64,000 nucleotides of DNA from Chloroflexia bacterium SDU3-3. Its GTDB lineage: Bacteria > Chloroflexota > Chloroflexia > Chloroflexales > Roseiflexaceae. The stretch covers positions 62,001-126,000 of the forward strand of contig WBOU01000005.1 of the NCBI GenBank assembly GCA_009268125.1. The letters run 5' to 3'. The position numbers were made by a program, and so were the translations under genes. The notes beneath the pieces were generated by a model, which was not told the DNA's origin, did no database searches, and worked only from the letters and a program-made list of their open reading frames with translations. Positions within the stretch are counted from its first letter, which is position 1. Each line of letters starts with the position of its first letter. Below are positions 31,433 through 62,326 of the stretch, piece after piece.

Positions 31433-31620
31433 CTGAGCAGGGCATGCAGATGCGGCAGACGGTGCGATCCAGCGTGCCAGTGCGGGCATGGTCGTTGCCA
31501 CCGGCAGCGGGTGGGCATGCACGCGATGCGCTCCGGGACGTAGGAGCGGGCACCGGCCCCCCTACACCCAATACGGGGCACTGCGAGCATCGGGCTGGAG
31601 GCGATGACCGCAATGTTGAT
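31433..31620. other. Gene-free stretch before the tandem array
   Basis: No gene seen. It includes a degenerate GTAGG-rich/CCTAC hairpin (about 31549-31567) related by eye to the two hairpins in the 44.5-44.9 kb element. Confidence 0.45.
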
Positions 31621-31914
31621 GGTCGGGGAACCTCTGTGTGAGTTGGGGGAACCTCTGTGTGAGTTGGGGGAACCTCTGTGTGAGTTGGGGGAACCTCTGT
31701 GTGAGTTGGGGGAACCTCTGTGTGAGTTGGGGGAACCTCTGTGTGAGTTGGGGGAACCTCTGTGTGGGTTGGGGGAACCTCTGTGTGGGTTGGGGGAACC
31801 TCTGTGTGAGTTGGGGGAACCTCTGTGTGAGTTGGGGGAACCTCTGTGTAGGTCGGGGGAACCTCTGTGTAGGTCGGGGGAACCTCTGTGTGGGTTGGGG
31901 GAACCTCTGTGTGA
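31621..31914. repeat. Tandem array of a 21-bp unit, 14 copies
   Basis: The unit is GGGGGAACCTCTGTGTGAGTT. Fourteen copies of AACCTCTGTGT occur at an exact 21-base period. Variation is confined to the last six bases (GAGTTG, GGGTTG or AGGTCG). Because 21 is a multiple of three, several frames stay open through it, but there is no ribosome site or codon-like variation, so it is not treated as coding. There are no unique spacers, so it is not a CRISPR array. Confidence 0.95.
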
Positions 31915-42653: not shown

Positions 42654-44150
42654 CTAGCTCTCGCTGGCGGCGGGCTTGCTCTGCTTCGACTGCAGGTCGA
42701 GCAGGCGGGTGTTCAGCTCGCTCACCTGGCCGGGGTCGGCTAGCACCCGCAGGTGGTCGCCCGCGCGGATCACGGTCGCGCCGCTGGGCACGATCTGCTC
42801 GCCGTTGCGCTCGATCAGGATGACCAGCACGTTATGCGGCAGCTCTAGGTCGCGGATAGTGCGCCCGCCCACCAGCGCGCCGATCGGCACCACCAGATCC
42901 AGCACGCGGCTCTCTGGCCCCACGCTGGGCACAAAGGCCAGCGAGTGGCGCTCCTCGCCCGGCTCGCGGCGGTTCAGGCCCAGCCAGCGCGCCACACGGG
43001 CGATGGTGGTGCCCTGCACCAGCACCGAGGCCAGCACGATAAAGAACACGATGTTGAAGATGAAGCTGGCGTGCGCCACCCCATCCAGCAGCGGGAAGGT
43101 GGCCAGCACGATCGGCACCGCGCCGCGCAGCCCGGTCCACGAGATCATCAGCTTCTCGCGCACACTCATGCCGCTGAAGGCCAGCGCCACAAAGACGCTG
43201 GCCGGGCGGGCCACAAAGATCAGCACCGCCGCGCCCAGCAGGCCCTGCCCGGCCAGCGGGATAACCTGCGAGGGGAAGACCTGCAGCCCCAGCGTGAGGA
43301 ACATGGCGATCTGCATCAGCCAGGCGATCGCGTCGTGGAAGCGCACGATCGACTGGCGGCGCACCATGCGGCGATTGCCCATGGTGATGCCCGCCAGGTA
43401 GACGGCTAGGAAGCCATTGCCGTGCAGCAGCGAGGAGGCCCCAAACACCAGCATCACCGTGGCGATCGAGAGCACCGGGTAGAGCCCATCCACATCCAGG
43501 TGGATGCGGTTCATGGCCCAGGTCATAGCCCAGCCGATCCCGAAGCCCACCAGCGCGCCCAGCGCCATCTCCCAGAAGAACAGCGGCACCAGCCCGGCGA
43601 TGGATGCGCCGGGGTGGATCAGCAGCTCGGTCAGCCCCACGGTCAGAAACACGGCGATCGGGTCGTTGCTGCCCGACTCCAGCTCGATCAGCGGCTCCAG
43701 CTGGCCCTTCAGGTGCACGCCGGTGGTGCGCAGCACCGAGAACACCGCCGCCGCATCGGTGGATGAGATGATCGAGCCGAGCAGCAGGCCCTCGCCCCAG
43801 CCCAGGCCCAGCACGTACTTGGCGAAGATGCCGAAGATGCCGGTGCTCACCAGCACGCCCACGTTGGCCAGCAGCAGGCCCTGGCGCAGCACCGGGCGGA
43901 TGGCCTTCCAGTCGGTATCTAGCCCGCCCGAGAACAGGATGAAGGCCAGCGCCACCGTGCCGATGTTCTGGGCAAACTGGGCGTTGTCAAAGTAGATATT
44001 GCCAGGGCCGTCGGCCCCGATAAACATGCCGATGGCCAAGAACAGCAGCAGCGAGGGGATGCCAAAGCGGCTGGAAGCCTTGCTGGCGATCACGCTGGCA
44101 AGCAGCAGCAGCGCCCCAATAAAAAGCTGCTCTTCGATCGTGAACATCAT
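42654..44150 (-). CDS. CPA1-family Na+(K+)/H+ antiporter with TrkA-C domain
   Basis: About 498 residues from ATG 44150, which has AGAGAGG five bases upstream. There are about 12 membrane helices; EEQLFIGALLLLASVIASKASSRFG and LFLAIGMFIGADGPG begin the protein, and the transport-site region ELESGSNDPIAVFLTVG carries the paired acidic residues of NhaP antiporters. A C-terminal RCK_C/TrkA-C domain (about 420-490, SRVLDLVVPIGALVGGRTIRDLEL) can bind ions or nucleotides. It exchanges Na+ or K+ for protons. NhaP2/CvrA-type K+/H+ antiport is the nearest named type. An AT-rich control region lies upstream. Confidence 0.88.
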   Translation of the reverse strand: MMFTIEEQLFIGALLLLASVIASKASSRFGIPSLLLFLAIGMFIGADGPGNIYFDNAQFAQNIGTVALAFILFSGGLDTDWKAIRPVLRQGLLLANVGVLVSTGIFGIFAKYVLGLGWGEGLLLGSIISSTDAAAVFSVLRTTGVHLKGQLEPLIELESGSNDPIAVFLTVGLTELLIHPGASIAGLVPLFFWEMALGALVGFGIGWAMTWAMNRIHLDVDGLYPVLSIATVMLVFGASSLLHGNGFLAVYLAGITMGNRRMVRRQSIVRFHDAIAWLMQIAMFLTLGLQVFPSQVIPLAGQGLLGAAVLIFVARPASVFVALAFSGMSVREKLMISWTGLRGAVPIVLATFPLLDGVAHASFIFNIVFFIVLASVLVQGTTIARVARWLGLNRREPGEERHSLAFVPSVGPESRVLDLVVPIGALVGGRTIRDLELPHNVLVILIERNGEQIVPSGATVIRAGDHLRVLADPGQVSELNTRLLDLQSKQSKPAASES

Positions 44151-44359: not shown

Positions 44360-44479
44360 ACGAAATACCGATAGTTATTTTAGGTATCTTATACTTTTAC
44401 CTACTATCAGCAATTAATGGCGCGTTGATTTACTCTTTATTACGCTTGAGAAATAAACAACGGCGGAAATCCGAGCGAG

Positions 44480-44550
44480 CTGGGTGGATGCCCTGCGCGG
44501 GCGGCGACTAGGGGCCAGCCCCTCGGAACCCCGCCAGGGGGCGATGCCTT
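44480..44550. repeat. Duplicated GC-rich block, copy 1
   Basis: Shares nearly the whole of GGGTGGATGCCCTGCGCGGG and the following CGGCGACTAGGGGC with copy 2 at 45058-45130. Contains the hairpin GGGGCCAGCCCC. Confidence 0.8.
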
Positions 44551-44946
44551 CAACAGGTGTCACTTTTGCGGCGTTCCCATGCGTTTTTGGCAACCATGCA
44601 CGATCGATGGCCGATGCACCGCATTGCCGTCATCGCACCCGACCCGATGATCGCAATGATCCGCCATGAGTGTAGGGGCGGATCTCGTGTCCGCCCCATT
44701 GCAACGCGCCGCAAGCATCGAGGCCCGATCCGATGCTTACGACACATCCCAATGCGTTCCACGCCGCGTTTCATCGCATGCATCGAATGCCCTGCGATGC
44801 GTGCGATGAAACACGGCGTGGGCGGGCACAAGACCCGCCCCTACAGCAATGATCACATGGCGTGCATGCCCGGCACGCCGTTTCATCCCGTGGGGCGCAT
44901 CCCGACGCCCCGACCCAAGAAAGTGACACCTGTTAAAGGGCATCAC
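44542..44946. mobile_element. MITE-like element bounded by imperfect inverted repeats and rich in hairpins
   Basis: Left arm at 44542-44567 and right arm at 44920-44946 match as an inverted repeat (CAACAGGTGTCACTTT against the complement of AAAGTGACACCTGTTA, with GATGCC beyond). Between them lie GGGGCGGA/TCCGCCCC (44674-44697), GCATCG/CGATGC (44715-44736), a 27-bp imperfect inverted repeat at 44759-44821 (CCACGCCGCGTTTCATCGCA and complement) and GGGCGGG/CCCGCCC (44820-44840). There is no transposase. Apparent open frames here are low-complexity and not taken as genes. Confidence 0.6.
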
Positions 44947-45057
44947 TCTCATATGGTGCCGCTTTCTGCGGCTTCCCGAGGCGTTTTTGGTAAAAATATG
45001 CGTTGTCGTTGATTCGGCCAGGGTGCGCCTTCGTTGATGGCGGTTGTACTTGTTCGG

Positions 45058-45130
45058 TGGGTGGATGCCCTGCGCGGGCGGCGACTAGGGGCTAGCCCCT
45101 AGTAACCCCACGAGGGGGCGTTGCCCCCTT
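45058..45130. repeat. Duplicated GC-rich block, copy 2
   Basis: Nearly identical to copy 1 over its first 45 bases. Contains two perfect hairpins: CTAGGGGCTAGCCCCTAG and AGGGGGCGTTGCCCCCT. Confidence 0.8.
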
Positions 45131-45340
45131 CGAACCCCCAATTTGAGGCGTTCCTATGCCATTTTCCTGGCGGCTGGGGTTCGTGCATATGGCTATTAAA
45201 ACACTAGCGGCACCTTCGCCGCATGGGCCGGGTGGATGAGGATTCTTTGATCTTGCTTGCCCTGCACGCCCTGGTACGCTAGATGCCGTCCGCTATTGCA
45301 TCCCGGTGCCCCACCCCAAAAAGCAACATCATGTTGTGAC
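45131..45340. other. Gene-free stretch
   Basis: No gene seen. It includes an inverted pair CGAACCCCCA/CTGGGGTTCG (about 45131-45183) and an AGCGGCA hairpin repeated near 45450. Confidence 0.45.
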
Positions 45341-45423
45341 GCTCCCCCGACCCACACAGAGCTTCCCCCGACTCACACAGAGCTTCCCCCGACCCACACA
45401 GACCTTCCCCCGACCCACACAGA
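45341..45423. repeat. Second 21-bp tandem array, four copies, opposite orientation
   Basis: Units read TTCCCCCGACCCACACAGAG on the plus strand, the complement of the GGGGGAA(C/G)CTCTGTGTGGGTC form of the unit at 31621-31914. The first copy lacks one base. Confidence 0.88.
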
Positions 45424-45532
45424 TGAACGTTGTGATGATGTCCATGAAAACCATAGCGGCATGTTTGCCGTATGGATGGTGAATTGGCATGTATGCTCTT
45501 GGAGCCTTGGCAGCTTGGTGGCGAGCCGGTGT

Positions 45533-45612
45533 TCTTCCCTTCGTGTCTTCGCGCCTTCGTGGTATTCGTTTCCTTTCGTTCCTTGGGGTCTTGGTGGTGA
45601 AGAATCCTCGGC
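45533..45612 (+). repeat. Dispersed promoter-proximal repeat, copy B
   Basis: First half CTTCCCTTCGTGTCTTCGCG and CCTTCGTGGTA, second half TTCCTTGGGGTCTTGGTGGT followed by GAAGAATCCTCG. It ends 47 bases upstream of TGG-TATCAT and 110 bases after the second 21-bp array. Confidence 0.85.
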
Positions 45613-45689: not shown

Positions 45690-46391
45690 GTGACCCTTGT
45701 GTTACTGATCCGCCACGGCACCAACGACTGGGTCCACGGTCGGCTGGCGGGCTGGACGCCCGGCGTGCATCTGAACGACGCGGGCCGCCAGCAGGCCGCA
45801 GCACTGGCCACGCGGCTCACCGCCATCCCCCTGGATGCGATCTACGCCAGCCCGCTGGAGCGCACGCTGGAGACAGCGCGGGCCATCGCATCGCCGCGCG
45901 GCATGCCCATCCACATCTTGGATGCCCTGGGCGAGGTGAAGTATGGCGAGTGGCAGGGGGCCGAGCTAAAGGAGCTGTACAAGCACGAGCTGTGGCCCGG
46001 GGTGCAGCACTACCCCAGCGGCACGCGCTTCCCCGGCGGCGAGACCCTGGGCGAGTCGCAGGCCCGCATGGTGGCGGCGGTGGACACCCTGCGCGGGCGG
46101 CACCCCAAGGGCATCATCGCCGTGGTCTCGCACGCCGACATGATCCGGCTGGCGCTGGCCCACTACATCGGCATCCACACCGACCTATTTCAGCGGCTTG
46201 AGATCCTGCCGTGCGCCCTGAGCGCGGTAGCCTTCACGCCAGCCGGCCCGCGCCTGCTGGCCTATAACGATACGGGGTCGCTTGAGCACCTGCGGCCAAA
46301 GCCCGAGGAGCCAAAGCCCGAGCAGCCCGCCGAGCAGGCGCAGCCCGCACCTGCCCCCGAGGCCGCGCCCGAGGCCGCGCCCGAGCGATAG
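45690..46391 (+). CDS. Histidine phosphatase (MSMEG_4193-type probable phosphomutase)
   Basis: 233 residues from GTG 45690, which has AAAGGAA six bases upstream. The phosphohistidine motif LLIRHGTNDWVHGRLAGWTPGVHLNDAG, the second acidic region YASPLERTLETA, GEVKYGEWQG and the second His in AVVSHADMIRLALAHY are complete, so it is an active-looking member of the phosphoglycerate mutase superfamily. The GRLAGWTPGVHL insert and the company of DUF3090 and SCO1664 genes point to the TIGR03848 type. It has a Pro/Glu/Ala-rich tail of about 30 residues. It is probably first in a three-gene operon (gap 23 bp to the next). Confidence 0.85.
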   Translation: MTLVLLIRHGTNDWVHGRLAGWTPGVHLNDAGRQQAAALATRLTAIPLDAIYASPLERTLETARAIASPRGMPIHILDALGEVKYGEWQGAELKELYKHELWPGVQHYPSGTRFPGGETLGESQARMVAAVDTLRGRHPKGIIAVVSHADMIRLALAHYIGIHTDLFQRLEILPCALSAVAFTPAGPRLLAYNDTGSLEHLRPKPEEPKPEQPAEQAQPAPAPEAAPEAAPER

Positions 46392-61441: not shown

Positions 61442-62326
61442 CTAGAGCGGGTAGGAGAGCACCGTCTGGCTCTCGCCGGTGCGGCGGAAGCCGAACCACT
61501 CGTAGAGCCGCTGGGCGGCGCGGTTTTCCTGCTGGGTGTTGAGCGTGATCGACTCGGCCCGGCTGCGCTCGGCGAAGGCCACGACCTCGGCCAGCAGCCG
61601 CACGCCCACCTGCTGGCCGCGCGCGCCGGGGTCGACCGCGATGCGCACCAGATGCACCAGCATGCCCTGGAAGTGGCTGGTGACGAAGGCGTAGCCCACC
61701 GGCAGATCATCCAGCTCGGCGATCAGGAACAGCGGCTGCTCGACGATCGCCGGGCCGAGGATGCCCTCATCCTTGGCCCACTGCGGATCGAAGCACAGCC
61801 GGTCGAGCGCCACCACGGCGGGCAGGTCGGAGAACAGCGCCTTGCGCACCCGCACGCGCCCGTTCCCCGGCGAGGGAACCGCGAAGCCGTGCTTTTCGTA
61901 CACTACCACATCGGTCTGCCGCACCCAGCCGCGCGCCAGCAGGGCAGGCTGCAGCCAGGTGTCGGCGGACAGGTCGCCCGCGTAGAACAGCCGGGCCACG
62001 CCGCGCTGATGCGCGATGTCGGCCAGCGGCGGCAGCAGGGCCTCCAGCCCGGCGGGCACGGGCACGCTGTCGGCCAGGGCCACAGCCCGCAGCCAGGCCA
62101 CATGCTGCACTGGCCAGCCCGCCACTACGGCCCCCAGCACATCCGCGCCCAGGGCCAGCGCCACGGCGGGGGCGCCGCCGAGCAGCGCGGGCAGGTCGGC
62201 GCTGGCGGCGGCTAGGAAGCGGTGGGACTGGTCGCGCAGCATGCGCGAGATCGCGGTGATGTCCTCGGGCGCGCACGGGCGCACCGTCGCCTGGCTGAGG
62301 TCGAGCGGACGGCGAAAGAATGGCAT
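61442..62326 (-). CDS. GNAT-family N-acetyltransferase, probably with two GNAT-like halves
   Basis: 294 residues from ATG 62326. The C-terminal half has the acetyl-CoA-binding region VRIAVDPGARGQQVGVRLLA (the R/Q-x-x-G-x-G/A loop) and NTQQENRAAQRLYEWFGF, as in RimI-like enzymes. The N-terminal half (TVRPCAPEDITAISRML, later ALLARGWVRQTDVVVYEK) is a more degenerate GNAT copy, so the enzyme may be a tandem GNAT. The acceptor amine is unknown. The upstream TTG at 62332 is not used. Confidence 0.8.
   Translation of the reverse strand: MPFFRRPLDLSQATVRPCAPEDITAISRMLRDQSHRFLAAASADLPALLGGAPAVALALGADVLGAVVAGWPVQHVAWLRAVALADSVPVPAGLEALLPPLADIAHQRGVARLFYAGDLSADTWLQPALLARGWVRQTDVVVYEKHGFAVPSPGNGRVRVRKALFSDLPAVVALDRLCFDPQWAKDEGILGPAIVEQPLFLIAELDDLPVGYAFVTSHFQGMLVHLVRIAVDPGARGQQVGVRLLAEVVAFAERSRAESITLNTQQENRAAQRLYEWFGFRRTGESQTVLSYPL

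Follow-up and report, generated by a model that had tools for sequence, protein, structure and literature searches.

A probable IS-dependent MITE-type element carrying a REP dimer within a nest of related elements in a Chloroflexia genome

Introduction

What occupies the gene-free DNA between a Na+/H+ exchanger gene (- strand, start near 44150) and a histidine phosphatase gene (+ strand, start near 45690) in Chloroflexia bacterium SDU3-3? The locus lies in a stretch of 64,000 nucleotides (positions 62,001 to 126,000 of contig WBOU01000005.1), which we call the window and whose own numbering is used throughout. A first-pass annotation described an inverted-repeat-bounded element packed with hairpins at 44542-44946, in a gene-free region of 1.4 kb, and suggested that it could be a MITE-like element, a structured RNA or a cruciform site. 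The region is gene-free as described, and its size is about 1.5 kb. Here, we examine the ends and the cargo of this element, its copies in the genome, and an insertion sequence (IS) with the same ends.

Element B and its boundaries

The element under study, here called B, is bounded by 17-bp TIRs (Table 1). The hairpin-packed structure was recovered: the GTAGGGGCGG/CCGCCCCTAC arms and the 27-nt hairpin lie where they had first been placed, as do the outer arms. Its limits had to be revised, as the repeat runs beyond 44946 and B has a further repeat piece on either side, at 44481-44548 and at 44949-45336. The outer arms (44547-44566 and 44920-44939) are 20 nt each, 95% complementary and separated by 353 nt. 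Compared by eye with the left end of the IS, the left TIR of B is identical at 17/17 positions and the right TIR at 16/17.

Folded as DNA, 44542-44946 reaches -117.5 kcal/mol; 100 shuffled sequences average -77.35 (sd 4.07), and none attained the energy of the original (z = -9.86). A mechanical list of open reading frames gives only short ones for B (the longest one overlapping it has 151 aa), and the cargo shows no apparent remnant of a transposase gene.

Table 1. Features of element B and its flanks, in window coordinates.
Feature	Position	Strand	Remark
MITE-type element B	44550-44936	.	387 bp, TIR-to-TIR span; element under study
Left TIR, TCAACAGGTGTCACTTT	44550-44566	+	Identical to the left end of the IS over its initial 17 bp
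Right TIR, - strand reading TTAACAGGTGTCACTTT	44920-44936	-	
Left 12-bp flank of B, GGGGCGATGCCT	44538-44549	.	Matches the right flank at 5/12 only
Right 12-bp flank of B, AGGGCATCACTC	44937-44948	.	Fits exactly between B and the TIR-like end that follows
GTAG-type REP palindrome, first	44672-44697	+	GTAG and 9-bp stem
GTAG-type REP palindrome, second	44820-44844	-	Inverted; head-to-head dimer with the first, 148 bp start to start
27-bp imperfect hairpin	44759-44785 / 44795-44821	.	93% complementary; sits between the REPs of B
M347 left-half fragment	44481-44548	+	91% to 45058-45125; aligned to an M347 copy
Degraded M347 element	44949-45336	+	Both ends TIR-like (14/17, 12/17); 45014-45334 of the body can be aligned

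Copies in the genome and their target duplications

A DNA search with 44400-45100 gave at least 95 matches in the same genome, and 40 of 331 first-look candidates were scored. Among those scored, the best other match, with 94% identity over 470 bp, is C12:128027-128495; the remaining core copies are mostly 73-85% identical. Because most core copies are no more similar than this, B may no longer be mobile. The search for further copies with the same termini, which had been suggested as a check, returned 157 matches to the 20-base arm when as many as 3 mismatches were allowed, and the reversed pattern had 0. We aligned 25 of 30 loci, omitting L017, L019, L025, L026 and L030, which match only the part belonging to M347, a second MITE family of 347 bp with the same ends as the B family. 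Fourteen of the aligned copies, which were grouped as having arms, are conserved from about 44556 to 44930, and the 11 core-type copies are conserved from about 44586 to 44870. The number of copies (25 aligned), the lack of coding capacity (short frames only) and TIRs common to an IS of the genome all agree with a MITE.

Target-site duplications are a property of the family and are missing at the window copy, so the expectation of flanking duplications was borne out only in part. Among 63 loci of the genome (a subset of the 157 arm matches), we found 31 adjacent TIR pairs, 180-436 bp apart. The flanks of nine pairs are identical at 11 or more of 12 positions; 5000 re-pairing shuffles averaged 1.78 such pairs and never gave more than 6. 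The other 22 pairs have no duplication of 11/12 or better, and the flanks of B itself agree at 5/12 positions, i.e., there is no matching duplication. Neighbouring ends may often come from different elements through nesting and rearrangement, which would explain the pairs without a duplication. One TIR pair, at C12:10380-10751, has 12-bp flanks that are perfect inverted rather than direct repeats, perhaps the result of an inversion between elements.

Related empty sites were also found. When the two flanks were joined, 21 of the 29 pairs tested (of 31) had at least one junction-spanning match to an uninterrupted repeat, and eight had none. These matches are not independent, as some are the same or overlapping loci and many are gapped. 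The best cases are gap-free, e.g., C2:293180-293525 (213 bp, 85%) and C4:79502-79848 (178 bp, 84%).

An insertion sequence with the same ends

Nine contig ends of the assembly break off about 100 bp inside an element that starts with the arm, TCAACAGGTGTCACTTTTG, behind which an ORF begins. The opposite end of the IS, where the end of an ORF is followed by AAAAGTGACACCATGTGA, was found at ten other contig ends. Each of the nine left ends pairs with one right end by its 12-base flank, at 12/12 positions for seven of them and at 11/12 for the other two, and these matching flanks fix both the IS termini (TCAACAGG... and ...CATGTGA) and the length of the duplication. The IS is present as at least nine copies and is known in this genome from its ends alone; these copies account for contig breaks in the assembly. 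A degenerate remnant of the left end of the IS (L113, C11:206060-206125; 89% over 66 bp) adjoins M347 pieces.

The IS targets approximate GGG-N6-CCC, with exceptions such as GAGCTAGAGGCC. IS231 has a target preference for GGGN5CCC. The MIC231/IS231 mobile insertion cassettes of Bacillus cereus resemble B in being transposase-less, in having IS4-family ends and in their GGG..CCC-type target. However, their termini and host phylum are different, and the cargo of B consists of REP palindromes.

Nesting and target choice

The window contains parts of three nested MITEs, namely half of an M347 element, B, and a degraded M347 element. B interrupts the M347 fragment inside a GGGGGC..GCCCCC palindrome, and exactly 12 bases separate it from the degraded M347 element on its other side. 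The same exact spacing was seen in four other neighbouring element pairs, one each on C3, C6, C13 and C33. M347-like DNA borders the IS left and right at four of the nine paired sites; 1 of 200 random window pieces gave a match. We infer from these sites that the elements favour targets within their own palindromes. Insertion of IS into GC-rich palindromic repeats is on record for REPs (PMC1525189); in contrast, the targets here are the palindromes of MITEs that carry the ends of the IS itself. A tandem array of an M347-type part was seen at L034 (C3:166231-166686), where arm copies follow each other at a spacing of 218 bp three times in succession.

The transposase and its relation to the IS4 family

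The transposase was read from a relative. Of 158 genomes of the class searched with the TIR pattern, eight matched, SDU3-3 among them. In G013, a genome of the same family and another genus, two inverted TIRs 1202 bp apart enclose an ORF of 389 codons. The last 32 residues of the SDU3-3 IS are identical to the C-terminus of this protein at 17/32 positions (score 99; shuffled maximum 46), and its N-terminus MPPSPRYHTI resembles MPTSPRYDTI in G013. Homologues with E <= 1e-10 are present in 31 of the 158 genomes. TIR pairs in the genomes of relatives (L170, 375 bp; L172, 151 bp) carry 12-bp repeats by eye, and DNA of B is nearly absent from relatives, with direct similarity in 4 of 40 genomes and in short pieces only.

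The IS4 family has been described by De Palmenaer et al. (2008; PMC2266710), and that paper is the source of the spacing, YREK and duplication-length criteria used here. The likeness lies in a single-ORF DDE transposase with D-61-D-105-E spacing, a length of about 1.2 kb and a duplicated target spanning roughly one turn of the helix. D101, D163 and E269 are invariant in nine homologues and, judged by motif and not by structure, fall within D(60-110)D(100-150)E. The nine come from the 11 listed matches with at least 47% identity, two partial ones being omitted. A helix-turn duplication of 11-12 of 12 bp is present at all nine left ends of the SDU3-3 IS. The signature Y-(2)-R-(3)-E-(6)-K is different, as R and E are present, but the Y position is G and the K position is Q, both invariant in the nine homologues. 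The G013 transposase scores 25.3 bits against Pfam DDE_Tnp_1 (cut-off 23) but 132.4 bits against NCBIfam NF033591 (IS4 family), under the cut-off of 152. We call this predicted DDE transposase IS4-like because spacing and duplication length agree with the family while the YREK hallmark does not, and it departs from the family in two respects, the hallmark and the NF033591 score. A Pfam scan with the C-terminus of the SDU3-3 IS (a query of only 32 residues) returned no family, and a PDB sequence search with the G013 transposase no match. PF01609 has three matches in the SDU3-3 genome, and in the one inspected (L168) no link to a TIR was seen.

The inner hairpins as GTAG-type REP palindromes

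The GTAGGGGCGG/CCGCCCCTAC arms (44671-44696 and 44820-44845) are 26 nt long and 88% complementary. The pattern GTAGGGGCGG-N3-9-CCGCCC matches the genome 129 times, compared with once for its reversed form. Among the 100 matches listed, 32 neighbours are no more than 600 bp apart; 23 of these 32 are head-to-head, and 14 of the 23 lie at 135-163 bp. Across the 25 aligned copies, the two stems are paired in 100% and 97% of cells, and pairing is kept through G-C/A-U double changes in nine and eight copies, respectively. A further G/C-rich hairpin reported near 31549 exists only in a degraded form, GTAGGAGCGGGCACCGGCCCCCCTAC, at about 31540-31565.

A GTAG end, a palindromic stem, high copy number and head-to-head dimers are what was found here, and the inner hairpins of B fit GTAG-type REP palindromes on these sequence features. 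The REP/REPIN literature gives the same traits, i.e., a GTAG end, a GC-rich stem, high copy number and mostly head-to-head dimers, and it records GTAG-type REPs from Chloroflexi (Di Nocera et al., 2013; PMC3733652). By comparison with that description, the spacer in B is longer, at about 120 bp where 20-100 bp is usual; in addition, no RAYT gene was found in this genome, and the dimer lies inside an IS-type MITE. The exact 25-base REP hairpin was also seen in 19 stretches of unrelated genomes (L087-L105), most of them from one Dehalococcoidia MAG that has multiple copies, and others from Microbulbifer, Arenimonas, Opitutaceae, Acidobacteriota and more.

Proposed mechanism and alternatives

We consider B to be an IS-dependent element of MITE type that carries a REP dimer, lies in a nest of related elements and is mobilised by the IS transposase, and we give this reading a probability of about 0.86. 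The MITE-like option of the first-pass annotation is upheld by the copies with the same termini, the IS that shares them and the target duplications of the family. Most likely, the DDE transposase of the IS would move B in trans by cut-and-paste, and insertion copies a 12-bp target, GGG-N6-CCC or a close variant. Targets of this type sit in GC-rich palindromes of the same MITEs, and each insertion is flanked by the duplicated target. Because the targets lie in the elements' own palindromes and are duplicated at the flanks, new copies would land in or right beside old ones, giving nested clusters. The cargo of B is a head-to-head GTAG-type REP dimer with a structured spacer.

The REP dimer could instead have been spread by a RAYT-type tyrosine transposase, with the outer arms being merely the customary insertion palindrome, as for the REPs of other bacteria. 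The 11 core-type loci have REP dimers with poor or no outer arms, and REP dimers inside palindromes are on record, e.g., GTAG-23 in T. roseum (PMC3733652). However, the outer arms are the termini of an IS with its own duplications, and M347 copies have the same TIRs and good duplications but no REPs. Furthermore, the genome search found only two Y1_Tnp genes, one of which adjoins a TnpB-like ORF, and neither 3.35-kb locus contains a GTAGGGGC palindrome. We rejected a RAYT as the mover of the whole of B on this last result, and the explanation as such appears unlikely.

Somewhat less probable still is a mosaic of unrelated GC-rich repeats joined by recombination rather than a transposition unit. 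The many TIR pairs with unmatched flanks and the position of B between a truncated M347 piece and a degraded M347 element would agree with a mosaic. Against it, the closest relative of B (C12:128041-128426) has the same termini, flanks that agree at 10/12 positions and M347-like DNA on either side, and the duplications across the family exceed those of re-paired flanks.

Another option first proposed, a structured RNA without coding function, or else a regulatory element between the two divergent genes, is very improbable. The structured RNA was rejected because the B region has no Rfam match at gathering scores and the 27-bp hairpin, which keeps its CATCG/CGATG blocks but not its mid-stem across the family, shows no covariation beyond chance in 25 copies (19 cells changed on both sides versus 19.6 in shuffles); the copies are also spread over many loci, and while the very stable fold and the double changes that maintain the REP hairpins speak for it, the copies' wide distribution speaks against it. 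As to a cruciform site, also among the options first proposed, the GTAG hairpins are conserved as hairpins, in agreement with REP palindromes.

The IS-dependent MITE reading can tentatively be extended to a two-tier parasite, which we regard as possible but doubtful. In this scenario, a RAYT that has since been lost here would once have spread the REP dimers. A MITE belonging to a DDE-transposase IS would have captured them as cargo, and they would now ride on it; in that order of events, the joining of REP dimer and TIRs would follow the spread of the dimers. Because the preferred target would be the MITEs' own palindromes, the family would be self-targeting and would build up nests between genes. 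The IS, for its part, would represent a new group related to IS4 that makes helix-turn duplications but has no YREK signature. Among open-licence papers, we found no recognised description of the IS, the MITE, their combination with REPs, or a YREK-less IS group. MITEs, IS4-like IS and GTAG REPs are each known kinds, and their combination is unusual. An orphan repeat family is here tied to a concrete transposase and a target rule, which makes trans-mobilisation and self-targeting testable, and REP palindromes in this genome may spread by a route other than RAYT.

Other repeats in the window

A 21-bp tandem repeat, GGGGAACCTCTGTGTGAGTTG (reversed, TCCCCCGACCCACACAGAGCT), is present 13.8 times at 31625-31914 and 3.9 times at 45343-45423, and both arrays are close to a degraded REP or MITE piece. 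A CCTTCGTGTCTTCGCGCCTTCGTGGT-type repeat at 45492-45604 is also found next to many of the other copies in this genome.
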